A stretch of DNA of 62,102 bases, taken from the NCBI RefSeq assembly GCF_008297975.1, contig NZ_VLNY01000020.1, positions 1 through 62,102 on the forward strand, given 5' to 3'. The translations under genes and the position numbers were made by a program. The stretch is from Antrihabitans cavernicola. GTDB lineage: Bacteria > Actinomycetota > Actinomycetes > Mycobacteriales > Mycobacteriaceae. Position 1 is the first letter of the stretch. Each line of letters opens with the position of its first letter. The notes under the pieces were generated by a model. It was not told the origin of the DNA. It saw nothing but the letters and a program-made list of their open reading frames with translations, and did no database searches. This document shows, piece by piece, positions 22,232 to 62,102 of the stretch.

Positions 22232-22257
22232 GCGCGAATCGGTGCAATTCTGGAGCC

Positions 22258-22635
22258 ATGCCACAACCGGTCGATATCGTCCAGAAACTGTCGCTCGTCA
22301 CCGAACAGTGGTCACCGAAGGTGGTGGCACGCCTCAACGACTACGAGATCAAGGTCGTCAAGGTCCAAGGCGAATTCGTGTGGCACAGCCACGACGACAC
22401 GGACGAGTTGTTCCTGGTGGTCGACGGCGTACTCACGATCCAGCTACACGACGGCGATGTGGTACTCCACCCCGGTCAGCTGTACGTGGTGCCGAAGGGC
22501 GTCGAACATTGCCCGATCGCCGACGGCGAGGTACACGCCGTGCTGATCGAGCCGTCCGGTGTCGCCAACACCGGTAGTGCCGGCGGCGACCGCACAGCGG
22601 CCTACGACGACTCGCTCAGTTCCAGTGCTCGGTGA
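22258..22635 (+). CDS. Small cupin-domain protein
   Basis: A 125-residue single cupin. The first metal motif is HSHDDTDELFLVVDG near residues 42-56. The second is HPGQLYVVPKGVEHCP near 74-89. Together they give the His, His, Glu and His ligands. The family includes dioxygenases, isomerases and binding proteins; the sequence does not tell which. It lies 26 bases after the salicylate ligase gene in the same direction, so co-transcription under iron control is plausible. Its last 20 bases overlap the end of the convergent secreted-protein gene. Confidence 0.82.
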   Translation: MPQPVDIVQKLSLVTEQWSPKVVARLNDYEIKVVKVQGEFVWHSHDDTDELFLVVDGVLTIQLHDGDVVLHPGQLYVVPKGVEHCPIADGEVHAVLIEPSGVANTGSAGGDRTAAYDDSLSSSAR

Positions 22636-23002
22636 TGACGAGTGATACGTCCTGGTTTGCCGGATTGTTCGGATCTGTGAGGTATGCGTTGATGTATCCG
22701 CCTGGGTGCGAGGCTGTTTCGCGAAACAGATCCTCCAGGCTGGTGTCGATACGGCCGTTGCTGTCGCTGTAGCTCGAACCGGGAGCGAGCCGAACACCCG
22801 TTGTCCGACCGGCAAAAGCCCGCTCGACCAGGGCAGGAACCGGACCTTCGGACACTGCCGTGGTTTCTCCCGGCGTGAGGCTGACACCCAGTCGGCCATT
22901 GCCCGGGTCGACGAGCGGGGTGGCCGCAGCAGCGGTTCCCGACGCGATTCCCATGACGATCGCAGTGCCCGCAAGCACCGTGAGGATAGTGGTGGATCGC
23001 AT
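22616..23002 (-). CDS. Small secreted protein of unknown function
   Basis: A 128-residue protein with a signal peptide (MRSTTILTVLAGTAIVMGIA, cleavage expected after GTAAAA). The mature part of about 100 residues starts TPLVDPGNGRLGVSLTPGET and ends NQDVSLVITEHWN. There are no cysteines in the mature part and no known motif. I do not recognise the family beyond small exported proteins of rhodococci and mycobacteria. It lies between the two salicylate genes but 73 bases downstream of the salicylate synthase gene on the same strand, so it could be read through from that iron-controlled promoter. Confidence 0.7.
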   Translation of the reverse strand: MRSTTILTVLAGTAIVMGIASGTAAAATPLVDPGNGRLGVSLTPGETTAVSEGPVPALVERAFAGRTTGVRLAPGSSYSDSNGRIDTSLEDLFRETASHPGGYINAYLTDPNNPANQDVSLVITEHWN

Positions 23003-23075
23003 ATTTCCCCTTCCGCGGTCAAACAGTCTTTCGCACTGTAATCGCTTCGGGAGCAATCCGTATCGGTCGTTCGTA

Positions 23076-35631: not shown

Positions 35632-35890
35632 TCAGAGCGATTGCATCGCCGAGGCCAGCTCGGCCGGATCGTCGCCGAGTTCGGGGACCAGCGACAGCAG
35701 CGCCATCGTCAAGGCAGCCGCACCGGTCACGCCCGTTGCCGCCAACGATGCGGCGAGAGCCTCGGTCCGCTCGTTCAGCTCCGCATAGGTGATGCGGTGG
35801 CCGTGCAGATCGATCGCGATCGCATCGGGCTGCTGCACGGCCAGTGCTGCGATGTCCGTCGGCGAGCCTGGGTCCGGAGCAGTGTCGAAC
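35632..35890 (-). other. Truncated adenylation domain at the C terminus of the NRPS
   Basis: After C3 the protein continues with [20 protein letters not shown] and [18 protein letters not shown], which is the normal start of an A domain including core motif A1. It then changes to a short tail, [20 protein letters not shown] and so on, and stops. All later A motifs and a carrier domain are absent. It is either the remnant of a deleted module or a functional tail. Confidence 0.85.
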
Positions 35891-38800
35891 CCCATCTCGG
35901 CACGCTCGGCGCTGCTCAGAATGTCGATGTCACCGACCGGCACGTCGACGTCGTCGACCACCGACTCGAGCACGCGGACGAACCTGCCCGCAAAGTTTTC
36001 GACCGTAGAGCGATCGAACAGTGCAGTCGCATAGACGAACTCGGCATCGATCTGCCCAGGCACATCGTGATCATCGAACTGTTCGTTCAAGGTCAGCTGT
36101 AGATCGACCTGCGCGGCTACGGCTGCCACGTCCATCTGCGAGACGGTGAGACCGGGCAGCTGCAGCTCCGGCCGCTGCGTGTTCTGCAGGGCGAGAATGA
36201 CCTGAAAAAACGGTGAGTACGCAGGCGACCGCGGCGGATTCAGCTGCTGCACCAGCATTTCGAACGGCACGTCCGCGTTCGCGAACGCCGCCAGGTCGGC
36301 CGCGCGCGCGGCGGCAACGACATCGCGGAACGACGCTCCGCCGTCCACTCGCGTTCGAAGCACCAACGTGTTCACGAACATGCCAACCGCGTCGTCCAGA
36401 TCGGCATGACCCCGCCCTGCAACGGGTGCACCGACGACGATGTCGGCACTACCGCTCAACCTGGCCAGCAGCACCGAGAACGCGGCGTGAAACACCATGA
36501 ACAACGTAGAGTTCTGGCTTCGTGCCAGCGCATTCAGCGATCGTTGCAGGTCGGTGGAGATGGTGAAGCGGACCGTGTCGCCGTCGGACGACCTGGCGTG
36601 CAGTCGCGGTCGGTCCGTCGGCAGCTCCAGCACGCCGGGCGCGCCGGCGAGAGCCTCTCGCCAATATCCGACCTGACGATCGAGAGCGGAGCCAGGACCG
36701 CCGTGTCCGAGTGCATCCTTTTGCCACAGTGCGTAATCCACGTACTGAACAGGTAGCGGCTGCCACTGCGGCGCATAACCTGCCAGCCGTGCGGCGTATG
36801 CGACGAACAGGGAGCGCGAGAGGGGTGCCATCGAATATCCGTCGGCCGAAATATGCTGCAGCACAACCGACAAGACGTGGTCATCCGCAGTGAGTCGATA
36901 CAACTCGGCGCGGATCGGCGAGTCGATGGTGACGTCGAAACCCCGGGCGCCGCAGGTCGCGATCCGCTGGTCGAGTGCGGCCGAATCGACTGCGATCGGA
37001 TCGAGCGTGACGCCGGACAACGCGTCGCCTGCGCTCAGCACCACCTGATGCGGCCCGGAATCGCCAAGCGGGTAGACCGTGCGCAACGCCTCGTGCCGTT
37101 GCACCACATCGGCCAGCGCATCGCGAAGCACGGACACATCGAGTTCGCCGGTCAATCGAAGTGCGAAGGAGATGTTGTACGACGACGATTCCGGGTCGGC
37201 CTGATTGATCGTCCACATTCCCGCCTGCGCGAACGACAGTGGGATCTCCAACGGCCGGTCCGCGACGTGAACGAGGGGCGCCACGTCGGATACCGGGGTG
37301 TCGGCGATTCGCTCGGCCAGTGCCGCAACCGTGCCCGCCGCGAACAGTTCGCGTACTTCGACTCGTCGACCGAACGCGACGCCCAGACGGGCGACCACCT
37401 GAGTCGCCGAAAGCGAGTTGCCGCCAAGTTCGAAGAAGCCGTCGAGCACGCTCACCCGCTCGACCCCGAGCACATCGGCGAACACTCCGGCGATGATGTG
37501 CTCGTCCGAGCTGCGCGGAACGACGAACGCGAGATCGGATCCGAATCCCGGGTCCGGCAGCGCCGTCCGATCGAGCTTCCCTACCGGATTGAGCGGAATC
37601 TCTTCCAGTTCAACCACTTTCGTCGGAACCATGTACGCGGGCAGCAGGCTCCGGAGATGATCGGTGACCGCTGCGGAATCGAGAGTGCTCGACGCCGAGG
37701 CGGACACGTACGACACGAGGGCCGAATCGCCCGCGGGAGTATCACGGGCAACGGTGACCGCAAATGCCACGTCGCTGTGGGTGCGCAATGCGGCGTCGAT
37801 CTCACCGAGTTCGATCCGGAAGCCGCGTACCTTCACCTGGAAGTCGGACCGGCCGACGTATTCGAGTGTCAGATCCTTGGTCCATCGCACCAAGTCGCCG
37901 GTCCGATACAGCTGACCACCGGCTCCTCCGAACGGGTCCGCCACGAACCGCGACGCGGTCAGCGCCGCCTTCCCCAGATAGCCTCGCGCACAACCGAGAC
38001 CGGCGATGTACAACTCGCCGATCGCACCGGTCGGGACGGGCCGCAACCTGGAATCGAGTACCACCGCGGACGTACCGCGGATCGGGCCTCCGATCGTCAC
38101 CCGCTCGGCGGAATCGATCGGATCGCTGATGCACACCATGATGGTGGTCTCGGTCGGTCCGTAGCCGTTGTGGAGCCGGCGACCGATAGCCCACTCCCCC
38201 GCCAGATCGGTCGGCAGTTCCTCGCCTCCGGCGACCAGCGTGTGCGGGAAGTCGAGGGCGGCCGGTTGCAGTGACGACAGCACGGTCGGCGTCAGGAAGG
38301 CATGCGTGATGCGCTCGGACGTGAGCAGATCGGCGAGGTCGTCGCCGCCGAGCAATCCGGGCGGTGTGACGACCATCGTGGCTCCCGCACCGACGGCGAG
38401 CAGGAACTCGAGTACCCAAGCGTCGAAGCTCGGCGACGCGAACTGCAAGACCCGCGAATCAGGCTGCACGCCATAGCGTTCACGCTGCTCGGCGGCAAAG
38501 TTCGCAAGACCGCGATGGGTGACCGTGACACCCTTCGGCTTGCCCGTCGACCCAGACGTGTAGATCACGTACGCGGCGTTGTCGGGGGTTGTCGTCGCCT
38601 GCAGTTCGCCGGCTCCGATCGGCTCGTCGGAGCGGAAGGCGAGCTCGGCGATGGTGGCGCCGTCGTCGAGCTCCACCCAGTTCGCCGAACCACCGAGCAC
38701 GCCGCGATGTTCCGACAAGGTGACGCCGAGAGTGGCAGCGGAATCGGTCAGCAGGTGGGCTATGCGTTCGACCGGATGAGTTGCGTCGATCGGCAGCCAC

Positions 38801-41800
38801 GCCGCACCCGTCTTCGCGACCGCCCAGACTGCGATCACCAGGTCGATGCTGCGCGGAAGGCACAGCGCGACAAGCTGTTCCGGCCGCGCACCACGCTCGA
38901 CCAATATCCGCGCCAGGCTGTTGGAGCGTCGGTCCAACTCGCCGTACGTCAGGCTGGTCCCGCCGAGCACCACGGCGGCCGCAGCCGGGTCGGCCGTTGC
39001 GTCGGCAAGCAGTCGCGACAACACCACGGGTTCTGCGCCCGCGCGACCACGCACCGGCGTGAGCGCGGCGAGCTCTGCGGGACAGAGCAGTTCGACATCA
39101 CCGACCATCACCGTCGCGTCAGCGGTCACAGCATCCAGGACGCGAAGAAACCTGTGCGCGAACAGCTCTACCGTGTCCGCGTCGAACAGGTCTGTGGCAT
39201 AACCGAGCTCGGCACGAAGGCCGGTAGCGGTCGATGCGGGAGCACCCAGCTCGGTCAGGGTGACCAGAAGATCGAATTTGGTTGCCGACGACGGCGGATC
39301 GAGCAGTTCGAACTCCACACCGCTCGCCGCGGCCTTGCGTTCGGTGTAGCCCTCGTAGGCGAGAGCGACCTGGACGATCGGCGAATACGACGACGTACGA
39401 GCGGGATTGCACACCTCCACCACGTGCTCGAACGGGACGTCGGCATTGTCGAACGCCTCGAGATCGGCCTCGCGTACTCGCACCAGCAGGTCGGCGAATG
39501 CCTCGCCGAGCTCGATACCGGTACGCAACGCGACGGTGTTGACGAACATCCCGACCATGTCGTCCAACTCGGCGGCACCGCGCCCGGCGACCGGAGTTCC
39601 GACCGCGACGTCGGAGGTACCGCTCACCCGGGCGAGAAGGGCCGCGAGCGCGGCGTGGACCACCATGAACACCGTGACGTTGTGTGCCTGTGCCGTCTGC
39701 TTCAGCCGCTCGTTGAGGTCGGCAGAGATCGTGAACGGCACAGTCGCGCCACGACCTGACGCTTCGGACGGTCGCGGTCGGTCGGTCGCGAGTGGCAGCA
39801 GTTCGGGGACGCCGTGCAATGCGGTTCGCCAGTAGTCGATCTGGTGGGCGAAAACAGATTCCGGATCGTCGGGGTCGCCGAGCACCTCGTGCTGCCACAG
39901 GGTGTAGTCCGCGTATTGCATCGCGAGCCGACTGCCGCCGGGTTCCACACCGCGCACCCGAGTGTCGTAGGCGCCGATCACATCGCGCAGCAACGGCCCG
40001 GTCGATTCGCCGTCGGAACAGATGTGATGCAGCACGACCACCAGCACATGGGTGTGCGGATCGACCTGCAGGAGCCGTACCCTGAGCGGAATCGCGGCGG
40101 CCACGTCGAAGCCTTTGCCGGCGAATACGCCTATGCGACTGTCGATCTCGCCTGCATCGACCGCCTGCGGGGACAGGTCCACGTCGACGAGCGCGTCCGC
40201 GACCGATCCGATCACCTGATGCGGCAGTCCACCGTCCGCCGGAAACACGGTACGTAGCGACTCGTGCCTGCCGAGGACATCCGCGAACGCCGTGGCAAGT
40301 GCGGCGAGGTCGAGTGGCCCGGTGAGCCGCACGATGCCTGGCACGTTGTATGCCGCGGACGCCGGGTCGAACTGGTTGACCAGCCACATTCGCTGCTGCG
40401 CGGAGGACAGCGGGATCCGAGCCGGTCGTTCGCGGGCGACAAGTGCGGGCGGGGCGCCGGTTCCCGCGTGGGTACCCGCTCGTGCTGCGATCGCCGACAC
40501 TGTCGGCGCGTCGAACAGTTCACGCACGCTGATGCGCGTGTCGAGAGCCGCGCCCAGTCTCGACACCACGTGAGTCGCCGACAGCGAATCGCCGCCCAGC
40601 TCGAAGAAGTGGTCGTCGCGGCCAACCCGATCATGCTGCAGGACATCGGCATACACGCCTGCCACGATCTCTTCCAAGGGCGTCGCAGGTGCGCGGTACG
40701 TGCGTGCTTGCCGTTCCGGTTCGGGCAACGCCGAGCGATCGATTTTCCCGACCGGCGTCAAAGGCAGCTGCGCCAGCACCATGATGGTTGTCGGAACCAT
40801 GTGCGCGGGAAGAGTTTTCGCAAGCGCGTCGGCCAGGCGGTCCACATCGATTGCTGCACCGACGATGTAGGACACCAGCGTCACAGCACCTGCGGTATTC
40901 GCATTGCCGACGGTGACGGCCGACTCCACCTGCGGGTGTTCGACGAGTGCGGCATCGATCTCGCCCAGTTCGACACGGAACCCGCGGATCTTGAGTTGGA
41001 AATCGTTGCGCCCGGAGTATTCGAGTTCGCCCGTTTGCCGAAGGCGCACAACATCTCCGGTCCGGTACATCCGCTGTCCGGCTACGAACGGACTGGCGAC
41101 GAAGCGATCGGCGGTCGTCGCCGATCGTGCGTGATAGCCGCGCGCCAGTTGCGGGCCGGCGAGGTAGAGCTCCCCCGCGACCCCGACGGGCACCGGCTTC
41201 AGCCGACGATCGAGAACGACGGCGCCGACACCGGGCACCGCGTCACCGATGGTGACCGGCGTTCCAGGCGTCAATGCGGTTGTGGTCGCGAGAATGGTTG
41301 CCTCGGTAGGCCCGTAGCCGTTGAAGAAGCGTCTTCCGGTCCCCCACTGCTGCACGAGTACGGGACTGATCGCCTCACCGGCGCCGACCACCACCTCGAG
41401 CTCGTGCAAGCCGGCGGGGTCGACTGTCGACAGGGCGCCCGGCGTGATGATCAGGTGCGAAACATGCTCGCGCCGCAGCAGATCGGACAGTTCGGCGCCA
41501 CCGAAGACGGGGGGCGGGACGACGACCAGCGTCGCACCGGCCGTGAACGTCACCAGCATCTCGAGAATCGAGACATCGAAGCTGGGCGAGCACACATGCG
41601 CGACACGGGAATCGGGGACGACACCGAATTCGACGCGCTCCGCATCTGCCAGACCGGCAAGGCCTCGATGGGTGACGACGACACCCTTCGGCAGGCCCGT
41701 CGAACCGGAGGTGTAGATCAGATACGCGGCATGCTCGGGCCGCACGCGACGAACCCGATCGGCATCGGACACCGGCGCCGAGCTGTGCTGCGAGACATCG

Positions 41801-43554
41801 GTGCGGTCGATCGGCAGCCAGTGGATGTCCGTCGGCAACGCGTCCATCGACGCACCGACCGTCAGGCCCGTCCTCGCACCCGAATCGGAGACCATGTGCG
41901 CGATCCGCTCGGCCGGGTAGTTCGGGTCGATCGGGGCAAACGCGGCACCGGTTTTCGCCACCGCCCAGACCGCGAGCACCGATTCGATCGAGCGCGGTAT
42001 CGCCACCGCGACCACGTCCTCGGCGCCGACCCCTCGATCGATCAGCGTGCGAGCCAGCTGTGACGATCGCTCGTCGAGTTCGCCGTACGTCATGGTCCGA
42101 TCAGCCGCCGTGACGGCGAGCGCAGCCGCGTCGGTGAACGTCGTCAGCAGGTCCGGAAGCAACTCGACCGGCGTATCGGCGACGTCGACGCGTGCGACAA
42201 GCTCGGCGCGCTCGCACTCTGTGAGTACATCGAGCGATGCCACCTCGGTTGTGGTCGCGACGGTGAGAAAGCGCTCGAGCAGCAGCAGGAAGCGCGACCG
42301 GTATCCGGTGAGCTCCGCCTCGTCGTAGTTGTTGGGATTGCCGTGGAAGTCGACGGAAATAGGCGCGTCGGGGCCGCTTTGATACAGGTTGATCCGCAGG
42401 TCGTCGAGAGCGCCCGAGGTGAGGATGTTGTAGCGCCCGATGGAGTCGCCGAACTTGATCTCGGTATCGAAGAACATCATGTTGACCGACGGTCCGAACG
42501 AACCGGTGTGCGGATCCGCGAGACCGGCGTCGCGACGAATGTCTTCGTACCGGTATCGCTGGTGGCGCAGCGCTCCGGTGATGTCGAGGGAGGTACGGGC
42601 GATCAGATCGCTGACGCTCACGCCGGGACCACACCGCAGCACGATCGGCACGGTGTTCGCGACCATGCCACCCGAGCGCTTCAACGCCATGGTCGTTCGG
42701 CCGGTGACCGGCAGCGTGACCATGGTGGAATCGGTGCCGGTCATCTTGGTCAGGAACACCCCGATAGCCGCAAGGAGCACCTGAGCAGGACTGACTTCGA
42801 GTTGCTTGGCCACCAACGCCAGGTCGGCTGCCACGGTGTCCGGCAGTTCGCCCTCGGCAAGCCTGTTATACGGGGCGGGACCCCCGCTGCGACCCGAGAG
42901 GTTGACCACTACCGGCAGGTCAGCGGTCTGCTCGGCCCAATATCGAGCATCCGTCTCGAACCGGCTCGACGCCCGATACTTCTGTTCGGCCTCGTTGAGA
43001 TCACGCAGGGGCAGGCCTCGAAACACATCGGGTTCGCGGCCGGCCAGCGCCGCTTCGTAGCGATGCGCGGTGCGGGTGGTCAGCGTCAACCCGGCATAAC
43101 CGTCGATGGCGATGTGGTGCATCCGCCCGTACCAGTAGTAGTGATCGACGCCGATTTTCAGGATCGCCATCACGGCGAGCCCATCTCGGGTGAGGTCGAG
43201 CGGCTTCAGGTAGTCGGCGCGCATCCACTCGAGTGCAGCGATAGCTGGGTCGTTGTCGGAGGTGGTGAAATCCAGCCGCTCGACGACTTGCACCATCTCG
43301 TCGTCGACCCACTGATACGGCGTGCCGTCGATCTCGGTAAGCCGCAGGTATCCCGTTCCCATCTCGCGGGCGGCCGCAAGACAGGCATCGGTGAACGTGT
43401 CGAGATCGAGTTCGCCACGGATTTCCACGTACTGCGCGACGTTGATCGGGAATTCGTCCGTCAGGTGCTCGGCGTACCAGACTCCCTGTTGCGCCGCGGA
43501 CAACGGAAAAATGTTGCCAGGAACGCCCTTTGCTGCCGATAGATCCGGCCCCAT
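35632..43554 (-). CDS. Non-ribosomal peptide synthetase, C-A-PCP-C-A-PCP-C plus A-domain stub
   Basis: About 2640 residues. Approximate DNA spans: C1 43520-42200, A1 42160-40740, PCP1 near 40590 (GGDSLSAT), C2 40430-39080, A2 39030-37570, PCP2 near 37415 (GGNSLSAT), C3 37250-35900, A stub 35890-35635. C1 begins [16 protein letters not shown] and has [11 protein letters not shown] with [12 protein letters not shown], the pattern of starter-type C domains as in EntF/DhbF, which take an acyl or aryl starter. C2 has HHICSDG, C3 has QHISADG. By-eye selectivity codes are DVLIVAGILK (A1) and DALFVGGIMK (A2); I cannot assign them. No E or TE domain. The ATG at 43554 follows GAGGGGG; an ATG at 43617 lies inside a hairpin. 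Confidence 0.9.
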
Positions 43555-43611
43555 CGAGTGCCCCCTCACATAATCGACATATTCGCGAAAGGTGTGTCCG
43601 TTTCGTGGCAA

Positions 43612-43651
43612 ATGCATCGCGCCCCCAGCGATGCATCCACCTTCGACTATA
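43612..43651 (-). promoter_or_regulatory. Leader hairpin and -10-like element before the downstream NRPS gene
   Basis: ATGCATCGC (43612-43620) and GCGATGCAT (43628-43636) form a perfect 9-base-pair stem with a 7-base loop. On the minus strand a TATAGT hexamer (43646-43651) precedes it. If that is the -10, the hairpin would lie near the 5' end of the mRNA, 58 bases ahead of the ATG at 43554. No IdeR-like box is visible in this 268-base gap (43555-43822). Confidence 0.45.
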
Positions 43652-43822
43652 CCGACGACCGGTTGGACGACCGTCCACAACCGCATGGCCATTTCGGCTT
43701 GTTACCAAGCTAATTGGGACTTCGAGTCGGATACAGCCCCAAAAAACGTGGGCAGCACAAGGGAGATCGGACATTTAGCGAAATGGTCGTGCGAATTCCA
43801 GTGATCTCCAACCGAATACGGA

Positions 43823-52800: not shown

Positions 52801-55800
52801 TGAGTCGATTACCGAATTCGACCACTGTGGTTTCGTCGAACAAATCGGTGGCATAGGTGAATTGCGCATCGATGCCAGCCGAACTGCCACGCTCGTCACG
52901 CCGTTCCGCGATGGCAAGCTGCACATCGAACTGCGCGATATGTGTGTCGGCGTTCAGTCCGGTGACGACGAGGCCGGGCAACGCGAAGTCGGCTCGCTCC
53001 ATGTTCTGGAGGGTGAGGCTCACCTGGAACAAGGGATGGCGGGCAGTCGAGCGAGTCGGATTCAATACCTCGACCAGCCGCTCGAACGGCACGTCTGCGT
53101 TCGCGAACGCTTCGAGATCACCCTCGCGAACGGTTGCCAACAAATCGGTGAAAGGTGTTGCGTTGTCGATGCGAGTCCGCAGCACCAGCGTGTTGACGAA
53201 CATCCCCACGAGGCCGTCAAGCGCCTCTTCGCCACGGCCCGCGACAGGGGTACCGATTGCGATGTCCTCGGCGCTGGACAGTCGAGCAAGCAGAACCGCC
53301 AGTGCTGCATGCAGGATCATGAACAGCGTCGAATGCTGTTCGTTGGCAAGCTGGTTCAATCGATTGTGCATATCGGCGTCGATCGTGAAGGACGTGGTCG
53401 CGCCGGCAAACGACTGCACGGCAGGCCGTGGCCGGTCCGTAGGTAGGTCGATCTGATCCGGCAAGCCAGCCAGCGTGGTGCGCCAGTACGCCAACTGACG
53501 GGATGTCACCGAGTTGGGATCGTCTTCGGAACCCAGTACTGCACGCTGCCACAGGGCAAAGTCCGCGTATTGCACCGGCAACGGCGACCACGACGGCGAC
53601 TCGTCTGTTGCGCGAGCTCGATATGCCGTCATCAAATCCTGCGCCAGCGGTCCCATCGAGTAACCGTCGGCGACGATGTGGTGCACGACCACCGCCAGCA
53701 CATGGTCGGCCGGCGAGATCCGGAGCAGGTTCATCCGAACCGGAACGTCAGCGGTCACATCGAACGGGGCGGCAACAAGTTCGAAGATTCTGGCCGAAAG
53801 ATCCTCCTCTGCAACCTGTTCCGGAGTCAGGTCCGGACGTGATGCCACCTCGATCACCTGAACCGGACCGTCTACGGTCTCCGGATACACGGTCCGCAGC
53901 GATTCGTGTCGTGCGAGCACGTCGGCTGCTGCGGCCGCGAACACGTCCGCATCGAACACGCCGACCATGCGGATTGCCATCGGAACGTTGTAGGCGGCGG
54001 AATCTGGTTCGAATCGGTTGAGGAACCACATGCGTTGCTGCGCAAGCGAGAGCGGCACCCGGTCCGGACGCGGCTGCGGCACCAATGGTGTGCGCGCGCC
54101 GCCACCTGCGAGCGATTGTGCGCGCGTTGCAAGCGCAGCAACGGTCGATGCTTCGAAGACGACCCGAACACCGATCTCGGTATCGAGCGCGGCCCCGAGT
54201 CGCGCAACCACCTGGGTCGCAAGCAGGGAGTTGCCGCCCAATTCGAAGAAGTCGTCGGTGGTGCCCACGCGGTCGACACCGAGGACACCGGAAAAGACAG
54301 CGGCAACCGCTCGCTCCGCATCGGTAGTCGGCGGTCGATGCTTGCGTGGTCCGAAAGACGGTTCCGGCAACGCTTTCCGATCGAGCTTGCCCGAGGCATT
54401 CAGCGGCAATGCGTCGAGAACAACAAAGGCGGTGGGCACCATGTATGAGGGCAATCGTTTGCCGAGCCCCTCACGAACACGCGCCACCACAATCGACTTA
54501 TCCACCTCCGCAACCAGATACGCGACGAGCTGGTCGCCACGTCGTGTATCTTGTCGAACGACAGCGACGGCCTCGTTGATCGAATCTTGCTGTACGAGTG
54601 CGGTTTCGATTTCACCGAGTTCGATCCGCAGGCCACGCAACTTCACCTGGAAATCGGTGCGGCCGATGTAATTCAACTCGCCCCGCGAGTTCCACGACAC
54701 CAGATCACCCGTGCGATACATCCGCGCACCAGGCTCTCCGTACGGGTTCGCCACGAACCGATCCGACGTCAGGTCCGGGCGCCCGACATAGCCGCGCGCC
54801 AACTGGACACCCGCAAGGTAGAGCTCACCCGCGACACCGACCGGGACCGGACGCAACCGACCGTCGAGGACGAACAGCTCGGTGTTGAACACCGGCGCAC
54901 CGATCGACACCGACGCGATATCGGCATCGACCACCTCGTGGAACGTCACGTCGACCGCAGCCTCGGTCGGGCCGTACAAATTGTGCAGTCGAGCACCCGT
55001 CGCGGCACGCAACTGCTGCGCCGTCTTCCCCGGCAACGCCTCACCCGACGCAAACACCTGCCGCAACGACGTGCACTCCCTCACACCGGCGGTGACATCC
55101 CCCGTCGCTCCGCTCGCCCCGGCAGCAACGAACACCGCCAACATCGACGGCACGAAATGCGCCGTCGTCACGTTCTCGCTACGAATGATGTCGACCAGAT
55201 ACGCCGGATCACGATGACCATCCGGGCGCGCCACCACCAACCGGGCACCGGTCTGCAACGGCCAGAAGAACTCCCACACCGACACATCGAACGTCGCCGG
55301 CGTCTTCTGCAACACCACATCGGATTCGGTGAGTGGGTATGCGGACTGCATCCACACCAAACGGTTCACGATCGCACCATGGGAGACCGCAACACCCTTC
55401 GGGCGCCCCGTCGAGCCCGACGTGAAAATCACATACGCCGTGTTGCTCGAATCCAGTGTCGAGGTCCGCTCACCGTCGGCAATTGGCGCATCCGAGAAAG
55501 CCTCGAGATTCAGTGTGTCGATCGCGACCGTGCGGGCCGACGACTCGAATTCGTAACCACTCGTCGTCAGCACCGCCACCGGTTGCGCCGTCTCCAGGAT
55601 GTAGTCGATGCGTTCCGCCGGGTGATCCGGGTCCAGCGGCACATACCCGCCACCGGCCACCGATACCGCATACATGCCTACGACCAAATCCAGCGAGCGG
55701 CGCATACCCAGAGCCACCAGCGATTCCGGACCCACACCCTCGGCAATCAACCACCGAGCAAGGCGATGCACCCGCGACGCGAACTCGCCATACGTCAGCT

Positions 55801-58800
55801 GCTCACCCTCGAACGACACCGCCACCGCACCCGGCGTCGCGGACGCTTGCGCCTCGAACAACGACACCAACGTCGCCGACGAATCCACCACCTGTGCGGT
55901 GTCGTTGAAACCGGACAACACCAACGACCGCTCGGCAACATCGAGCAACTCGATATCACCCACCGCCGCATCCGGTGCCGCGATCATCGCCGACAACACC
56001 CGAATCAGGCGGTCCGCGATCAACCGCACCGACTCTTCATCCAACAAATCCCGCAAGAACCCAGCCCGCACCGACAGGGTGGCCGCCAACGACACGATCA
56101 AACTCAACGGATAATGCGTCGCATCCGCCGCATCGATACCCGTGATCGACATCCCATCGATCGACGCCGCCTGCGACGCAATACCCGCAGCATCGACCGG
56201 GTACGACTCGAACACCACCAACGTGTCGAACAACCCGGACACCCCGGCCGCGGCCTGAATATCGGCCAACCCCACATAGTGGTGATCCAACAGATCCGCC
56301 TGCTCACCCTGAACCCGGGTCAGCAACTCCTCGACCGACTCCGCCGGATCGACCCGCACCCGTACCGGCACCGTGTTGATGAACAACCCGACCATCGACT
56401 CCACACCGGAAAGGCCCGCGGGCCGACCCGACACCGTCGTACCGAACACCACATCATCCACACCCACCAAGCGCGACAACAACACACCCCACCCGGCCTG
56501 CAACACGGTGTTCACCGTGACCCCGACCCGCGCCGCCAACACCGACAACCGAGCAGTCCGCGCCTCGTCCAACTCGAAAATCAACTCACCCGCCAACGCC
56601 GTCACGACCCGGCCCGGCTCAGCCGGCGCCAGCAGAGTCGGTTCTACGACACCGTCGAGGGCAGCGCGCCACTCTGCTAGGGAAGCATCTGTGTCCTGCA
56701 ACGCAATCCACTCGAGATAGCTGCGATAGGACAGTGCTGCCGGAATCGCGGTCCGATCGTTGCGGACGACGTACAAGGTCAACAGTTCTTGCAGAACCAG
56801 CGGCATCGACCAGCCGTCGAGAATGATGTGATGGTTCGTCACCACCAGCTTCCACGCATCGGAATCGATGCGCACCAACGTGAACCGGATCAAAGGCGGA
56901 TCGGTGAGATCGAATCGAGCTGCGCGGTCGTCGGCAACGATCGCGGCGCATTCGTCGGCGCGATCGGCGTCCGGGTTGCTCGTCAGATCGACGTCTCGCC
57001 AGGGTGCGCGCGTTGCGTCGAGCACGACTTGTACTGCGCTGCCCGATTCGCCCCGCACAAACGCTGTGCGCAGGGCGGCGTGGCGGGCAATCATGCCGTC
57101 GGCGGCGGCGCGCAGACGTTCGGAGTCCACCGAACCGTTGAGCGACAACACGATCTGCGAGGTGTAGACGTCGACCGACTCTGCAGCAAGGTTCGCGTGG
57201 AACAGCAGCCCGCTTTGCAGCGGTGACAACGGCCAGGCGTCGACAAGCGCTGGGTAGTGAGCCTCCCAGGTATCGATGTCTGACTGTGGGACACCCGCAG
57301 CGAACAGGTCCGACGGCGTCCGACCACCCGCCCCAGCCGTCTTCGCATGCGCGACTACCGCGGCCAAGGCATCGGTCCACCGCGTGGCGAACTGGTCGAC
57401 GTCACCCCGTTCGAGCAGAGTCTCCGGGTAGCCGAGATTGGCAACCAGCTTGCCCTGCAACACGATCGCGTTGATATCGATGACCGCCATGGCAGGCATG
57501 TCGGCGTCGGGGATGACCTCGAGCTCACCGAGATCATCCGCCGGCATCCAACCGAATCCCGCGAGTTCCTCGGGGATGTCGGTAGTCGAGACCTGCCCGA
57601 GGTAGTTGAAACTGACCTGGCCGGGCATCTCTGTCGGAAGACTGCTGGCCGGATCGAGGTATCGCAGCATGCCGTAGCCGATGCCCTTGTCCGGCAACGC
57701 AAGTATCTGTTCCTTGACTGCCTTGATCGCCGACCCCATCGCAGGACCACCGGCAAGAGCATCATCGACATCGATGCCACCCAGATCCAGGCGCACCGGG
57801 AAGATCGCCGTGAACCACCCCACCGTACGAGACAGATCGGCGCCCGGCACGACCTCCTCTTCACGGCCATGCCCCTCGAGACGAATCAGCGACGACGCCT
57901 CACTCACACCACGACGCCTGCGCCATGACGTCAACGCCAGAGCGAGAGCCGTAAGCATGGCGTCGGTGGCACCGCCGTGGAACAACTCGGGGACCGTGGT
58001 CAGCAGATCCGCCGTTGTCTCGGCGGACAGTTCGAGTCGCACGTTGCGAACGGTGGTCGCAACGTCGACGGCTGGATCAAGGGCCCTGGTGCCGAGCAGC
58101 GGATCAGGACCGTCGATGATCTCCTGCCACATCGGAAGTTCCGCTGCTCGATCGGCAACCAGCTCGGTCAGTGCCGTCGACCAGCGGCGCATCGACGTGG
58201 ACGGCTCCGCCAACAACGGAACGCGTCCCGCGGAGATCTGGGCCCAGGCGGAGACGAAGTCGGGCAGCAGGATTCGCCACGACACACCGTCCACCGCGAG
58301 GTGATGGGCCGCGACGATCAGCCGACCCGATCGGCGCAATGCCTTGTCGGTGGCTATCGGATTCAGCCACACGAACTGCACCACAACACCTGACGCCGGA
58401 TCCAGCCGACTCAAGGCCGAATCGAGCTCTCGGGTAGCAAGATTCGTCAGCGACTCCGCGTCGAGGCCGGCGTCGAAAGGGACGTGGGAGACCAGAGCGT
58501 CGACGTCGATCGCACCCACTGGCAGCACGTCGAGATGTAGCCCATCGTCATCGGTGAACAGCCGCGATCGCAGCATGTCGTGCCGATCGACGACCGCGGT
58601 CAGGGTGTTCACGACGCCGGCTCGATCGATCTCCATGGGAAGTTCGATGGTGATGGTCTGGTTGAACCGGTCGTAGCTGCCGCCTCGCTCGGCCATGAAT
58701 CGAACGACCGGCGGCAACGGCATGTCGCCCACTCCACCGCCGCGCAGCTCCTCCAGCACCACGGGAGCCGCTGCCTTCGCCGTCGCTGCGATCGCCGCCA

Positions 58801-61800
58801 AACCCGCTACCGTGCGCTGCTCGAAGACGTTGCGCGGCGAGAACACCACACCACGAGCCTTCGCCCGCGACACCAACTGAATCGACACGATGCTGTCACC
58901 ACCGAGCGCGAAGAACGAATCGTCGACACCCACCCGCTCCACACCCAACACCTCGGCGAACACCGCCGCAATGGTCTCCTCCACCGGCGTCCGCGGAGCC
59001 GTGAACGCAACCGCATCCGCGTACACCGGTTCCGGCAACGCCGCCCGATCCAACTTGCCTGCGCGCGTCAACGGAATGTCGCCCAACACCATGACGCTCG
59101 CGGGAACCATGTGTGACGGGAGGCGCGTCGCGGCGTGTTCGATCAACTGCGACGTGCTGATCGATTGCCCCTGGGCGGCAACAACATACGACACGAGACT
59201 CGTCGCACCTGCGGCATTGGTGTGGCCGATGGTCGTCGCGAACCGAACGCTGACATGGTCCGTCAAGACGGCGTCGATCTCACCGAGCTCGACACGGAAT
59301 CCGCGCACCTTCACTTGGAAATCGCTGCGGCCCACGTACTCGACGTCACCAGTGATGGTCCAGCGCACCACGTCACCCGTGCGGTACATCCGTTCACCCG
59401 CAACGCCGTACGGGTCGGCGACGAACCGGTCGGCCGTCAGGCCGTTCCGTTCGTGATAACCCCGGGCCAGCTGAACTCCGGAAACATAGAGTTCCCCGGC
59501 GACGCCCACGGGGACCGGCCGCAGCCGTTGATCCAGAACCACCGACCGCATACCGCGAATCGGCTTACCGATCGTGACGAGATCGCCGGCTGTCAACGGC
59601 TCGCTGATGTGCGGCGCGACCGTTGCTTCCGTCGGACCGTAGGCGTTGAAGAATCGGCGAGTGCGGGTGGAATCCGTTGTCGCCCAGCGTGACACCAAAC
59701 CGGCGGGCACCGCATCGCCACCTGCCACCACAACCTGTAGGTCGTCCAGGTCGATCGGATCCACCGAGGCCAGAGCTGCGGGCGTCACGAACGCATGCGT
59801 AATACGTTGGCGCCGTATCAGATCAGCCAATTCCGTACCGCCGTAGACCGTGGTAGGCGCAATGACCGTTGCTGCACCGGCGCACACCGCAAGGAGCAGC
59901 TCCAAGATCGATGCGTCGAAGCTCGGCGAGGCGAAGTGCAGTACGCGCGACGACGAGGTGACCGCGAATCGCTCGCGCTGCTCGGCCGCGAAGTTGGCTA
60001 GTCCGGCGTGGGTAACCGTGACGCCCTTGGGCTTGCCGGTCGATCCGGAGGTATAGATCACGTACGCCGGGTGTTGCACGGAGAGAGTGCGGAGTCGTAC
60101 GACGTCAGGAACGTTTTCGCGCGAAGAGCCGACTACATCGTCGGTCGACAACCATTCGACGCTGTCGGGCAACGCCTCTCGCGCATCGGGCACAGTCAGA
60201 CCCATCACCGCGCCGGAATCGGACAACATATGGGCTATTCGGTCCGGCGGGTAGGACGGGTCGACAGGCACGAAGGCCGCACCCGACTTCGCCACCGCCC
60301 AGACCGCGATCACCGATTCGATCGATCGCGGCACAGCAACGGCAACCAGATCTTCCGGCCCGACTCCCCGGCCGATCAGCATCCGCGCCAACCGGTTCGA
60401 GCGAATATCCAACTCGTCGTACGACAGCACCACGCCGTCGGCAACAAGGGCAGGGGCGTCCGGATCGATTTTCGTCGCCGTAGCGAGCAACTGTGGAAGC
60501 GTTTGTGCTGCTTCAGCGTCCGGTCCGGTGCGGCTGGTCAAGTCTGCTCGCTCGGCAACACTCAACAGCTCGATGTCGCCGACGGCAACGTTCGGCGTCG
60601 CAGCGACAGTTCGGAGCAATTGCCCGAAGCGATCCGCAAAATGCTCGATTGTCGCCCGATCGAACAAGCTTGTCGCATAGCTGAACTCGGCCGCAACACC
60701 ACCCGTCGCGGTCTCCGGTGCGGCGGCGAGCACGGTGAGGGTGAGATCGAACTTTGCCGTGTGGACATCGATGTCGACACCGCGTGCGGTGACCCCCGGG
60801 AGTGTGAAATCGGTTGTCGGCACGTTCTGGAACGCCAATGCCACCTGGAACAGCGGATGCCGTGCCGTCGATCGCTCGGGGTGCAGTAGATCGACGAGTC
60901 GCTCGAACGGGACATCGGCATGCCCGAACGCGTCCACGTCTGTACGACGAATCCGATCGAGCAGATCGACGAACGATTCGCTCGTATCGATACGCGAGCG
61001 CAACACTAGGGTATTGACGAACATGCCGATCATGTCGTCGAGCGCGGCCTCACCACGACCGGCTATCGGTGTGCCGATTGCGATGTCGTCGCTCACCGAC
61101 ATCCGAGCGAGGAACGCGGCAAGCGCACCGTGGACGACCATGAACACCGTGGCGTTGTTCGCCCTGGCCAGTTCCACCAACCCGCGGTACGTACCGGCGT
61201 CGATCTGGAAAGGCACTCGCCCGCCGTCGAGCGATTGCGTTGCAGGGCGTGGACGATCCATCGGGAGCGAGAGCTCGTCGGGCAGTCCTGCCAACGTGGT
61301 TGTCCAGTAGTCGATCTGCCCTGCGATCAACGACGACGCATCGCTCTCTGAGCCGAGCAGCTCGCGCTGCCAGGTGCTGTAGTCGGCGTACTGCACCGGC
61401 AACGGTGACCACCTGGGCTCGTCGCCGTCGGCACGTGCTGCGTACGCAACCATCACGTCTCGGGCGAGCGGACCCATCGAGAAGGCGTCGGCGCTGATGT
61501 GGTGAACGACCATGACCACCACATGTTCGGTCGCACCGAGTTCGAACAGCGTCACGGCCAATGGCGTAGCCGTCGATACATCGAGCGGACGTGACACCGC
61601 TTCCGTGATGCGTTGCGGCAGCTCGGACTCCGCGACGGCGTGCACCGTCAGGTCCGGAACAGCCTGTGTCGCAGAGAGAATCACCTGCTCGGCTGCGCCG
61701 TCGTGCTCGGGGTAGATCGTGCGCAGCGACTCGTGCCGGGCCACCACGTCCGCGATCGCCGAACTCAGCGCAGCAACGTCCAATTCGCCGGACAGTCGGA

Positions 61801-62102
61801 TGGCGATCGGAATGTTGTAGGCAGCGGATTCGGGTTCGAATCGGTTGAGGAACCACATCCGCTGCTGCGCCAGCGAGAGCGGAATGCGTTCCGGACGCTC
61901 CCGCGCAACAAGAGCAGCGCGAGCACCCTCGCCCGCATGCGATTCCACCCGAGCAGCCAAACCAGCCACCGTGGGCGCTTCGAACAACACACGCACCGCA
62001 ACCCGCGAATCCAACACCACACCCAACCGCGACACCACCTGCGTCGCGATCAGACTGTTACCACCCAACGCGAAGAAATCATCATCCGCACCGACCCGCT
62101 CG
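43823..62102 (-). CDS. Giant non-ribosomal peptide synthetase, five full modules and TE (N-terminal part off window)
   Basis: More than 6080 residues; the start lies beyond the right edge. Order and approximate DNA spans: PCP0 at the edge; C1 61890-60480, A1 60450-59030, PCP1 near 58893 (GGDSI), E 58760-57330; C2 57290-55900, A2 55870-54370, PCP2 near 54230; C3 54060-52690, A3 52680-51190, PCP3 near 51060; C4 50890-49520, A4 49500-48050, PCP4 near 47915; C5 47750-46400, A5 46370-44880, PCP5 near 44760; TE 44600-43826 (GWSLGG). E has HHLAVDGVSWRIL; C2 is the D-accepting type after it. By-eye codes: A1 DALFVGAVAK, A2 DVWHFSLVDK (serine), A3 DVWDFILVSK, A4 DAMFVGGIVK, A5 DARHFGEVTK. The EntF-like TE should release or cyclise the product. 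Confidence 0.95.
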   Translation of the reverse strand, partial: ERVGADDDFFALGGNSLIATQVVSRLGVVLDSRVAVRVLFEAPTVAGLAARVESHAGEGARAALVARERPERIPLSLAQQRMWFLNRFEPESAAYNIPIAIRLSGELDVAALSSAIADVVARHESLRTIYPEHDGAAEQVILSATQAVPDLTVHAVAESELPQRITEAVSRPLDVSTATPLAVTLFELGATEHVVVMVVHHISADAFSMGPLARDVMVAYAARADGDEPRWSPLPVQYADYSTWQRELLGSESDASSLIAGQIDYWTTTLAGLPDELSLPMDRPRPATQSLDGGRVPFQIDAGTYRGLVELARANNATVFMVVHGALAAFLARMSVSDDIAIGTPIAGRGEAALDDMIGMFVNTLVLRSRIDTSESFVDLLDRIRRTDVDAFGHADVPFERLVDLLHPERSTARHPLFQVALAFQNVPTTDFTLPGVTARGVDIDVHTAKFDLTLTVLAAAPETATGGVAAEFSYATSLFDRATIEHFADRFGQLLRTVAATPNVAVGDIELLSVAERADLTSRTGPDAEAAQTLPQLLATATKIDPDAPALVADGVVLSYDELDIRSNRLARMLIGRGVGPEDLVAVAVPRSIESVIAVWAVAKSGAAFVPVDPSYPPDRIAHMLSDSGAVMGLTVPDAREALPDSVEWLSTDDVVGSSRENVPDVVRLRTLSVQHPAYVIYTSGSTGKPKGVTVTHAGLANFAAEQRERFAVTSSSRVLHFASPSFDASILELLLAVCAGAATVIAPTTVYGGTELADLIRRQRITHAFVTPAALASVDPIDLDDLQVVVAGGDAVPAGLVSRWATTDSTRTRRFFNAYGPTEATVAPHISEPLTAGDLVTIGKPIRGMRSVVLDQRLRPVPVGVAGELYVSGVQLARGYHERNGLTADRFVADPYGVAGERMYRTGDVVRWTITGDVEYVGRSDFQVKVRGFRVELGEIDAVLTDHVSVRFATTIGHTNAAGATSLVSYVVAAQGQSISTSQLIEHAATRLPSHMVPASVMVLGDIPLTRAGKLDRAALPEPVYADAVAFTAPRTPVEETIAAVFAEVLGVERVGVDDSFFALGGDSIVSIQLVSRAKARGVVFSPRNVFEQRTVAGLAAIAATAKAAAPVVLEELRGGGVGDMPLPPVVRFMAERGGSYDRFNQTITIELPMEIDRAGVVNTLTAVVDRHDMLRSRLFTDDDGLHLDVLPVGAIDVDALVSHVPFDAGLDAESLTNLATRELDSALSRLDPASGVVVQFVWLNPIATDKALRRSGRLIVAAHHLAVDGVSWRILLPDFVSAWAQISAGRVPLLAEPSTSMRRWSTALTELVADRAAELPMWQEIIDGPDPLLGTRALDPAVDVATTVRNVRLELSAETTADLLTTVPELFHGGATDAMLTALALALTSWRRRRGVSEASSLIRLEGHGREEEVVPGADLSRTVGWFTAIFPVRLDLGGIDVDDALAGGPAMGSAIKAVKEQILALPDKGIGYGMLRYLDPASSLPTEMPGQVSFNYLGQVSTTDIPEELAGFGWMPADDLGELEVIPDADMPAMAVIDINAIVLQGKLVANLGYPETLLERGDVDQFATRWTDALAAVVAHAKTAGAGGRTPSDLFAAGVPQSDIDTWEAHYPALVDAWPLSPLQSGLLFHANLAAESVDVYTSQIVLSLNGSVDSERLRAAADGMIARHAALRTAFVRGESGSAVQVVLDATRAPWRDVDLTSNPDADRADECAAIVADDRAARFDLTDPPLIRFTLVRIDSDAWKLVVTNHHIILDGWSMPLVLQELLTLYVVRNDRTAIPAALSYRSYLEWIALQDTDASLAEWRAALDGVVEPTLLAPAEPGRVVTALAGELIFELDEARTARLSVLAARVGVTVNTVLQAGWGVLLSRLVGVDDVVFGTTVSGRPAGLSGVESMVGLFINTVPVRVRVDPAESVEELLTRVQGEQADLLDHHYVGLADIQAAAGVSGLFDTLVVFESYPVDAAGIASQAASIDGMSITGIDAADATHYPLSLIVSLAATLSVRAGFLRDLLDEESVRLIADRLIRVLSAMIAAPDAAVGDIELLDVAERSLVLSGFNDTAQVVDSSATLVSLFEAQASATPGAVAVSFEGEQLTYGEFASRVHRLARWLIAEGVGPESLVALGMRRSLDLVVGMYAVSVAGGGYVPLDPDHPAERIDYILETAQPVAVLTTSGYEFESSARTVAIDTLNLEAFSDAPIADGERTSTLDSSNTAYVIFTSGSTGRPKGVAVSHGAIVNRLVWMQSAYPLTESDVVLQKTPATFDVSVWEFFWPLQTGARLVVARPDGHRDPAYLVDIIRSENVTTAHFVPSMLAVFVAAGASGATGDVTAGVRECTSLRQVFASGEALPGKTAQQLRAATGARLHNLYGPTEAAVDVTFHEVVDADIASVSIGAPVFNTELFVLDGRLRPVPVGVAGELYLAGVQLARGYVGRPDLTSDRFVANPYGEPGARMYRTGDLVSWNSRGELNYIGRTDFQVKLRGLRIELGEIETALVQQDSINEAVAVVRQDTRRGDQLVAYLVAEVDKSIVVARVREGLGKRLPSYMVPTAFVVLDALPLNASGKLDRKALPEPSFGPRKHRPPTTDAERAVAAVFSGVLGVDRVGTTDDFFELGGNSLLATQVVARLGAALDTEIGVRVVFEASTVAALATRAQSLAGGGARTPLVPQPRPDRVPLSLAQQRMWFLNRFEPDSAAYNVPMAIRMVGVFDADVFAAAAADVLARHESLRTVYPETVDGPVQVIEVASRPDLTPEQVAEEDLSARIFELVAAPFDVTADVPVRMNLLRISPADHVLAVVVHHIVADGYSMGPLAQDLMTAYRARATDESPSWSPLPVQYADFALWQRAVLGSEDDPNSVTSRQLAYWRTTLAGLPDQIDLPTDRPRPAVQSFAGATTSFTIDADMHNRLNQLANEQHSTLFMILHAALAVLLARLSSAEDIAIGTPVAGRGEEALDGLVGMFVNTLVLRTRIDNATPFTDLLATVREGDLEAFANADVPFERLVEVLNPTRSTARHPLFQVSLTLQNMERADFALPGLVVTGLNADTHIAQFDVQLAIAERRDERGSSAGIDAQFTYATDLFDETTVVEFGNRLTALLSGIVTDPSTAVGDIDLLAAAERERIVSEWNATDHSVPNMTLAELTAVGMQRDPGAVAVSFDGAELTFAEFDGRVNRLARRLIADGVGPESLVTVAMRRSLDLVVSLHAVVAAGGAFVPVDPDHPIERIGYILETAAPVCVLTSSADGFVTTGTTPTLAVDIIDLDDLAADPIAPEERSAHLAAGNTAYVIFTSGSTGRPKGVAVTHAAIVNQMLWMVDRYGVDSTDVYFQKTATTFDVSLWGYFLPLITGARLVVATPDGHRDAAYVSAAIAEHHVTITDFVPSMLTVFTSPATAQQCDTLRHVFVIGEALPIETARAFRALATAGLHNLYGPTEAAVSVTSWQSSESDTGSVPIGVPEWNVAAYVLDARLRPVPVGVAGELYLAGRQLARGYVSRPDLTADRFVANPFGSGRLYRTGDLVRWTNQGVLDYIGRTDFQVKFRGQRIELGEIETALLADDTVSQAVALVTETVTGQQLVAYVVPAAAKTVDIVSLKSTVGDRLPSYMLPSAIVVLDELPLNSSGKLDRKALPDPVFEAKTFRTPSTPIEEIVAGIFAEVLGIERVGADDDFFALGGNSLIATQMVSRLAAALDTTVAVRTLFEAPTVYALAARVELHAGQGNRVVLRKRARPEQIPLSLAQQRMWFLNRYEPGSSAYNIPIAIRLTGALDVAALRHAIADVVDRHEALRTVYPERDGVAVQFVVPAADVVATLALAPQPIDRGRLSDRVNAIAATPFDVAAQVPLSIGLLELSGTEHVLVVVIHHISGDAFSMGPLSRDIMVAYAARSQGDAPAWAPLAVQYADYSQWQHEVLGSESDPTSVVSQQVDYWTTALAALPAETNLPTDAPRPAAQSYRGGRVDFAIPDAVARAVDATARVHGATPFMMLHTALAVLLAQVAGSDDVAIGTPIAGRGDAALDHLVGMFVNTLVLRTVMDPRSSIAALIDQVSATDIDAFGHADLPFERLVDIISPERSASRHPLFQVALVFQDADGISLELGDLQAGALEIDTQIAKFDLQFGFTRTAGGLAASITYASDLFERTTVERFGRQLVRVLEQITADTTRPAGDIDLLDAAERADLLGRTGGAAEPAQTLPELIAAATALDPDATALTYRGSEVSYGELDSTSSQLARVLIDRGVGPETAVAIGISRSVESVVALWAVTKAGGVAVPVDLKFPRERIAHMLADSGAVLLLTNQSDAIDYDIAVLAIGDELDIELASKSADVVTDADRVATLGAADTAYLIYTSGSTGTPKGVSVTHAGLANFAAEQRDRYSVTAHSRVLHFASPSFDASFMEYLMGLCAGATLVIAPADIYGGDELAALLERERVTHAFVTTAALASIGSADLPELRVLVTGGEALPAEVAARWIADGRDFYNGYGPTETTIVSNLGAPLRAGERVTLGGPIRGMRSLILDRQLRPVPVGVAGEHYLAGIALARGYHRRPTLTAERFVADPYGAVSDRMYRTGDVVRWTDAGRIEYIGRADFQVKMRGFRIELGEIDSALTAHPGVEFAITIAHTRDGAMSLASYVSPMRDQALVPDDLTAFVADTLPSHMVPASITVLDALPLTPAGKVDRRALPAPVFQSSTEFRAPETPNEIAIAAVFGDVLGVATVGAHDSFFDLGGNSLSATRATSRVTAALGVSVAVRDLFEAPTVAELAVRTATFECSARLPLVPQTRPARIPLSMAQQRMWILNQLDPSSAAYNVALAMRLTGDLDVDALDSAIRDVVERHEALRTRYPEFDGVPAQVIEPVDRVVGRLTATPAAMADIADVTGAGFDATTEVPVRIRLFRTGATEYVLAVVVHHIAADGFSLGPLGQEVMAAYTSRSAGSAPTWAPLPVQYADFAIWQRETLGSADDPDSLMAQQIAYWSAQLAELPDLLRLPTDRTRPAVASMRGGRYDFTIDAALQRRLAALADANDASMFMVVHTALAVLLSRLSGTGDIAIGTPVAGRGDVALDRLIGMFVNTLVLRTRVDGGQSFAAVLDQVRENDLSAFSNSDMPFERLVEVLDPVRSTAYSTLFQVMLTFQNFERTEFVLPGLTVEPIESAAAHARFDLTVTMAELDAGIRVELTYATDLFDHDSMRQLSQRYLLVLEAMVTALDTSVGDVDLMDDDERHRLAYRNRTERAGNDGATLVSEFERQVAATPSGIALVFGEQQLTYSELAARVNALARRLIADGVGAESTVAIAMRRSIDLLVAMYAVTTSGAAYVPVDIDHPAERTQHLLDSARPMCILTTSMDASQLHTTLPTVAVDTLDLSNESTAPVTDSDRRRSLNPDNPAYVLFTSGSTGLPKGVVVSHRAIVNQLAWKHSEYGLDADDVFLLKTPATFDASMRELWLPLQVGARIVIAAPGGERDVDYLADTIEQHGVTATHFVASMLALLIAGADAAKLRSLRTVFVGGEPLPTTTAAKFLAVSNALLTNEYGPTEAAVTATNHPVTAADIDVMPIGVPVQNVVVYALDDRLRPVPDGVAGELYLGGTQLARGYFGRPDLTSERFVADPLRPGLRMYRTGDRVRWNRADDKPELEYLGRTDFQVHVRGLRIELGEIESALLDQPTVDNAVATVQVDTNGQQELVGYFVPSAGTSIDVGDLRAAIARRVPSYMVPGSLVELDAFPLNANGKLDRNALPRPERVVPTAVAPTSENARLVADVFADVLDLDQVGSKDSFFELGGNSLIGMTVVSRLRAASGIEVQYNWLFAASTPEELGLLLSGGGARAGASAFDVLTPLRSSGDREPLFCIHPAGGLAWFYAGLISHLDDDRPLFGLQDPRVVKGEQAYLAIEDYAARYVDEIRRVQPHGPYHLLGWSLGGRIAHAMAVQLQAEGDRVALLAMMDAAAELTLPDEPPATGQATSVSDAVGDTLGGWRELLDLADDAQVSGPEELAELIRDRISAAGMLTAEQVDAMIESFTEADQRTYRPGVFVGDLMFFTAARDHTGDDVPSHTWRRYVSGDIEDTRVDERHLGMANPAALDVIGPMLRDNLRS
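54650..56630 (-). other. Block of divergent codon use inside the giant NRPS gene
   Basis: From the middle of C2 through most of A2 the coding strand changes to TTG for Leu, GTG for Val, GCG for Ala and GAT for Asp almost throughout, seen on the plus strand as CAA/CAC/CGC/ATC-rich text. Flanking modules use mixed CTC/CTG, GTC and GCC. The change at about 56630 is abrupt. Judged by reading, not by computed statistics. Confidence 0.6.

Follow-up and report, generated by a model that had tools for sequence, protein, structure and literature searches.

A putative docking domain pair at the split module of a probable twelve-module nonribosomal peptide synthetase encoded back to front in Antrihabitans cavernicola

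Introduction

The available passages of a 2021 review (PMC9113145) name COM domains, at epimerization (E)/condensation (C) junctions, PAX domains, at peptidyl carrier protein (PCP)/C junctions, and beta-hairpin docking domains as docking domains of nonribosomal peptide synthetases (NRPSs). The locus described here, from Antrihabitans cavernicola, carries a docking-like domain (DD) at the border between a C and an adenylation (A) domain. It lies on contig NZ_VLNY01000020.1 of assembly GCF_008297975.1, whose full 62,102 bp we call the window; because the window is a complete contig (C13 of the 5.66-Mb, 41-contig genome G000), the cluster cannot be read further rightward.

Like the COM elements of that review, the DDs are a C-terminal and an N-terminal element that would link two NRPS proteins; COM, however, acts at an E/C junction through a helix on the hand motif of the C domain, whereas the DD is 80–90 amino acids (aa) long, is homologous on both sides and sits at a C|A split. 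PAX elements, in the same passages, are likewise paired, helical and terminal, but they occupy PCP/C junctions and form a bundle of three helices in all, while the DD lies at C|A, appears to resemble an A-domain N-terminus and is predicted to have a hairpin and four or five helices. The beta-hairpin docking domain, compared here by description only, binds a short peptide tail, whereas the DD tail is predicted to be folded. According to the available passages of PMC10443035, Type S NRPSs are also cut between C and A and joined by paired elements; these are SYNZIPs in the C-A linker, which are engineered additions, whereas the DD is natural. No C|A docking element is described in the passages on docking or on A-domain remnants obtained from an open-licence library, those of PMC9113145 included.

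The earlier reading of this DNA from its letters alone (the original prediction) knew of no rhodococcal product with this code set, the rhodococcal label failing at genus level because the host is an Antrihabitans. In the available passages of PMC5550956, 69 of 79 rhodococcal NRPS families have lipopeptide hallmarks, and clade-specific families without known relatives are the rule, so a cluster without known relatives is by itself unsurprising. The present locus resembles the C-starter lipopeptide NRPSs of those passages in its N-terminal starter C domain, multimodular size and clade-specificity, and differs from them in its reversed gene order and in a C|A junction, within a module, that bears paired DDs; the word "docking" does not occur in these passages, which do not discuss junctions. 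The cluster itself is an ordinary orphan C-starter NRPS, and it is the DD junction that may be new.

Results

Two NRPS genes encoded back to front

The window contains two NRPS genes, both on the minus strand and separated by 130 bp. The first to be transcribed is the 3' part of a giant gene (43823–62101; an open frame of 6,092 aa in the window, its 5' end open at the contig end), which ends in a carrier (T) domain and a thioesterase (TE) by domain searches. The second (35632–43692; 2,686 aa, organized Cs-A-T-C-A-T-C-DD, where Cs is a starter-type C domain) contains two A, two T and three C domains; a PF00975 search of both NRPS genes found no TE in it, the sole match being in the giant gene (44033–44572, motif GWSLGG, at the end of the line). 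A tree of 38 C/E domains taken from four contigs resolved into 7 E domains, 7 C domains of the kind that follows E, 2 starter C domains and a group of 22 further C domains. In it, the first domain of the 2,686-aa protein (42196–43512) joined the first C domain of contig C10 with support of 100/100, apart from the other C and E clades, although the tree tool flagged the branches that separate the E clade from the starter clade as long. The thioesterase search and the tree thus bear out the original prediction that the TE is on the DNA-upstream gene and that the downstream gene starts with a starter-type C and lacks a TE. An N-terminal starter-type C domain, complete elongation modules and a releasing TE, as expected of a C-starter NRPS, are all present.

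We read the locus, at a probability of roughly three in four, as an NRPS of two proteins and twelve modules, encoded back to front, that makes an N-acylated peptide and has its halves held together by a DD pair. The 2,686-aa protein would begin the chain, its starter C domain acylating residue 1, would then add residue 2, and its last C domain would make the bond to residue 3. The A-T that opens the giant protein would load this residue. Module 3, with its C on the starter protein and its A-T on the giant, is thus divided; the DD on the starter tail and the DD on the giant's head would hold these halves together, and the starter protein would thereby hand a dipeptide to the giant. The giant would add residues 3 to 12, epimerize residues 5 and 8 to D and put Ser at position 9, and the TE would free the chain. 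In order of action the starter protein reads Cs-A1-T, C-A2-T, C, and the giant, taken as the joined parts on contigs C20 and C13 (below), reads A3-T, C-A4-T, C-A5-T-E, C-A6-T, C-A7-T, C-A8-T-E, C-A9-T, C-A10-T, C-A11-T, C-A12-T-TE, which makes 12 modules with two E domains. The starter-C and TE logic, together with the DDs on the starter tail and at the head of the C20 gene, supports the route first proposed, with the downstream-encoded protein acting first and the giant second. The accompanying estimate of eight or more residues is true but low against twelve modules, while the count on which it was based, two A domains and six further carriers, is correct for the window by domain searches (five A, six T with the first cut by the contig end, five C, one E and one TE in the giant part).

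The DD as a probable shortened A domain

After its last C domain, the starter protein ends in an 80-aa piece (35635–35874, identified by profile comparison), the first half of which resembles the start of the A-domain model: it matches positions 5–44 of the 384 of PF00501 (E 2.1e-6, 27.2 bits, below the curated cut-off of 29.9). A homologous piece stands ahead of the first full A domain at the start of the C20 gene; taken alone, this head DD has no PF00501 match at E 1. A profile of 90 columns built from 12 DDs has A domains as its best PDB matches, over columns 3–66 at most among the matches listed, and the DD, at 80–90 aa, is without the full length and catalytic motifs of an A domain. Scanning the genome with this profile gave 63 matches, only two of them full-length (columns 2–83 and 2–88), namely the window tail and the C20 head; the other 61 end at columns 50–63, with one at 68 (a 205-aa frame on contig C23), as ordinary A-domain N-termini would.

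The window tail is predicted to be one compact fold (predicted local distance difference test score (pLDDT) 89.5, predicted template modelling score (pTM) 0.79), as is the related head DD of the Gordonia locus L070 (pLDDT 94.2, pTM 0.83), and the predicted structure has a beta hairpin and four or five helices. The matches listed by Foldseek for the tail are A domains and acyl-CoA ligases. The DD is probably a shrunken A domain that keeps the helix-hairpin-helix of the N-terminus together with helices possibly corresponding to a later part of the A core.

DDs occur as collinear pairs in related genomes

We surveyed 151 genomes of the host's GTDB family, 124 of which have a match at 1e-6, plain A-domain starts included; the counts below rest on the best 150 rows, from 69 genomes. 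These rows comprise 38 tail-head pairs on neighbouring genes, with DD-to-DD gaps of 64–863 bp, 21 pairs within one open reading frame (ORF) and 32 singles. Six of the singles are in frames of the ~11.3-kaa type (kaa, thousand amino acids), seven in small frames of 118–424 aa, and two are the window's own; when the flanks of the remaining 17 were fetched, 6 had an adjacent mate and 11 did not. The collinear pairs in other genomes thus total 46 (38, 6 and the two named loci L070 and L072; both ends confirmed), and in each the tail and head DDs are on neighbouring same-strand genes, the tail gene upstream, with the split falling between C and A. Among C, A and T domains, DDs scanned at more than 30 bits are preceded by a C domain or nothing and followed by an A domain or nothing: 73 are N-terminal before A, 64 C-terminal after C, 4 internal between C and A, and 8 stand-alone, counts that include some loci from more than one scan.

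In a widespread NRPS, mostly of ~11.3 kaa (L109, L117 and 19 further), a single frame has two DDs spaced by about 6.6 kb. The frames of the 21 same-ORF pairs measure 11.3–11.9 kaa in 20 cases and 8.9 kaa in one; both DDs of L109 and of L117 are placed between C and A domains. Small stand-alone frames with one DD occur at L110, L111, L118, L117, L070 and L032, upstream of NRPS genes at L117 (32 and 43 bits) and, weakly, at L070 and L032 (25 bits). A role of such stand-alone proteins as NRPS partners was not borne out in the one neighbourhood put through Pfam, that of L111, where six frames within 7 kb include no NRPS gene.

Tail and head appear to share a subtype

Across 47 pairs (the 46 and the window's), the distance matrices of tail and head DDs correlate with r 0.89, and those of the adjacent domains do likewise (0.80–0.90). 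After the adjacent C and A distances, through which alone genome relatedness was handled, are regressed out, a partial r of 0.40 remains, a value reached by none of 2,000 permutations. Of the 46 pairs, the same ten, from Gordonia- and Williamsia-type genomes, are overall the nearest to the window's tail as well as to its head: these rank 1–6, 8 and 11–13 by head and 1, 2, 4, 5, 8, 10–12, 25 and 42 by tail, while by the window's flanking domains they rank low (25–46 for C and 36–45 for A). To judge from sequence, then, the window's tail and head appear to share a DD subtype, in contrast to the C and A domains next to them; as the ten pairs were grouped after their neighbours had been inspected, we take this as support rather than proof.

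These results bear on the possibility that the DD is a mere relic of a split A domain without a docking role, the two proteins meeting by other contacts or not at all. The likeness of the tail to an A-domain N-terminus (the PF00501 hit, below cut-off, and the A domains among the best PDB matches) would fit such an origin, as would DDs that lie within one protein or on small ORFs, one such ORF having no NRPS gene in the 7 kb studied around it, and the occurrence of unpaired heads. Against it, 46 loci retain two copies of similar length at C|A borders, and tail and head vary together beyond what the flanking domains account for; we consider this explanation unlikely. We incline, by a narrow margin, to see in the DD a natural docking domain of NRPSs that belongs to a new class, formed from an A domain without its middle and acting as a matched, portable homologous pair across the C|A split; nearly all examples so far come from the GTDB family of the host. 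If the pair fixes the partner, gene order would be free and a line could be encoded back to front.

Modules, codes and starter unit

All domains in the window lie on the minus strand and, with the exceptions noted, were found by domain search, C domains being also placed in the tree and A-domain codes being read at sequence anchors. In the starter protein, module 1 follows its starter C domain with an A domain at 41131–42123 (code DVLIVAGILK) and a T domain at 40480–40665; module 2 consists of C 39061–40416, A 37975–39000 (DALFVGGIMK) and T 37306–37494; and the C domain of split module 3 (35893–37248, motif QHISADG, from domain search) is the last catalytic domain. The codes on the C20 part of the giant are DVWTLILVSK (module 3), DPLVSGGIIK (module 4), DALFVGGIMK (module 5) and DVWSAALVHK (module 6), and most of the module 7 A domain falls within the assembly gap.

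The window resumes with the module 7 T domain (61946–62101), truncated by the contig end; the outermost 123 bp of this domain recur letter for letter at the end of contig C41. Module 8 has a C domain of the ordinary-C clade (60536–61888, motif HHISADA), an A domain (59453–60472, DALFVGAVAK), a T domain (58793–58975) and an E domain (57338–58672) that is placed in the E clade and scores 100.2 bits with TIGR01720 (cut-off 74.2). Module 9 continues with a C domain of the after-E clade (DCL type; 55928–57235), an A domain at 54788–55858 and a T domain at 54125–54310. The A domain has the code DVWHFSLVDK, which we take to be the serine code of EntF; it is the one confident code of the line, and Ser is the only substrate assigned. 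This succession supports the predicted D-X-Ser, and the single D residue foreseen from the window's E domain becomes two when the whole line is counted. The remaining modules are module 10 (C 52715–54061; A 51611–52642, DVWDFILVSK; T 50951–51139), module 11 (C 49550–50893, motif HHISGDA; A 48470–49486, DAMFVGGIVK; T 47813–47992) and module 12 (C 46427–47746; A 45320–46369, DARHFGEVTK; T 44657–44839).

The product would probably be a lipid-capped peptide of about 12 amino acids. It is also conceivable, though distinctly improbable, that module 1 is loaded instead with an aryl acid (salicylate or dihydroxybenzoate) by a ligase and a chorismate enzyme encoded at 20–24 kb, and that the product is a siderophore. 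An aryl-AMP-ligase-like gene (20204–22231; TIGR02275 625.6 bits, below the cut-off of 723.55) and a gene for a chorismate-binding enzyme (23076–24389) are indeed present, 11–15 kb away from the NRPS genes, but other genes intervene, the window has no PF00550 carrier outside the two NRPS genes, and twelve modules would be long for a siderophore. The pair of genes at 20204–24389 possibly provides a siderophore starter unit.

Probable location of the 5' part of the giant gene

Cut genes were judged by comparing the coordinates of frames with a C domain (77 matches) with the contig ends. Two such frames are cut at their 3' side, on contigs C10 and C20, and two at their 5' side, on C13 and C41. The outermost 123 bp are common to the C13 and C41 ends, and the outermost 123 bp of C20 are identical to C10 from position 64002; these identities indicate a collapsed repeat common to two genes, which probably broke the assembly. 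When the C and E domains of C10 are followed by those of C41, as far as its cut gene extends, their best matches run consecutively along one 14,997-aa gene of the relative G003, and the C10-then-C41 order continues into the following G003 gene; the sole out-of-order best match is that of the E domain at C41:179603. The last C domain of C10 matches G003 at 737166 and the first of C41 matches the next one, at 733980, with 73% identity each. In addition, a single NRPS locus in both G003 and G002 has cobM (on the C10 side) at one flank and an Antigen 85 (Ag85)-like esterase gene (on the C41 side) at the other, while the two sides are on two contigs in G001.

Since C10 and C41 correspond to one gene in the relative, C20 is by elimination the partner of C13, which would place the 5' part of the giant gene on C20. 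The gap between them would be ~1,390 bp if successive C domains are spaced by 1,846 bp, the value in G003, and the joined gene is estimated at ~11.4 kaa. The contig ends alone, with their 123-bp stretches common to C10 and C20 and to C13 and C41, would permit a giant gene made of C10 and C13, self-contained with its own starter C and TE, the 2,686-aa protein then feeding a C20-C41 gene elsewhere, but this is very unlikely given the G003 domain order, consecutive with one best-match exception, and the neighbours of C10 and C41, which in G002 and G003 stand on either side of a single NRPS locus.

Neighbouring genes and related loci

No orthologue of the 2,686-aa protein was found in three other genomes of the genus, the best starter C there being 48% identical. 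A scan of one genome per species (84,980 species) gave 76 related loci, from the best 80 of 117, that are 38–50% identical in the best segment; the host's own or near genomes are possibly outside that scan. An Antigen-85-like esterase gene (PF00756; 34552–35619) is convergent with the starter-protein gene, ~12 bp away, and such genes are also near NRPS loci on C41 and C38. We considered this esterase as a constant partner of the NRPS genes and rejected it: 5 of the 76 related loci contain one, so no enrichment is claimed.

Window positions 54600–56654 are 94.7% identical in DNA to C10:59939–61993 over 2,058 bp and 90.3% identical to C41 over 1,317 bp; modules of two different NRPS lines have probably swapped sequence here. 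Elsewhere in the genome, at C37:75806–76833, an A domain is spread over two frames (positions 3–195 and 206–384), a frameshift or an assembly error.

Discussion

Several observations limit the case for a back-to-front line held together by a DD pair. The genes that mark the flanks of C20 and C13 lie apart in G001–G003, and no relative has a direct join, so the C20-C13 join stays indirect. Thirteen other listed DD ends have no adjacent mate (the 11 singles and the heads in L046 and L085); one is a head at a contig end, in G030 a tail and a head are on one strand ~10 kb apart, and in G120 they are on different contigs. The A-domain origin of the head DD and the spread of DDs outside the family are less firm and slightly lower our confidence. 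Two of the mateless heads, in G064 (C16:5343 and C5:171201), are on genes whose preceding neighbour ends in a T domain and leaves room for a TE. Neither has a tail next to it, and both are candidates for further cases of reversed order.

Other NRPS proteins end in an A remnant of 257–315 aa (C41, G003 C12, L078, L019, L047, L073, L076 and others). The remnants are without the searched catalytic motifs in 19 of 20 rows (one gene appears twice, and C37 was excluded as frameshift-like), and the following gene, where in view, often starts with an Arg-rich head. A longer inactive A remnant with an Arg-rich head gene would be a sister solution to that of the DD.

The DD pair may represent a class of docking domain not described before. 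If it docks, nature already solves the task of cutting and rejoining at the C-A border that NRPS engineers tackle with SYNZIPs, and the 46 natural pairs would be a ready connector set. From the cluster one would predict a dodecapeptide that is acylated, contains two D residues and a D-X-Ser pair, and could be sought by mass spectrometry, and if the DD pair docks, partners could be assigned for scattered, reversed or multi-contig genes of one line.
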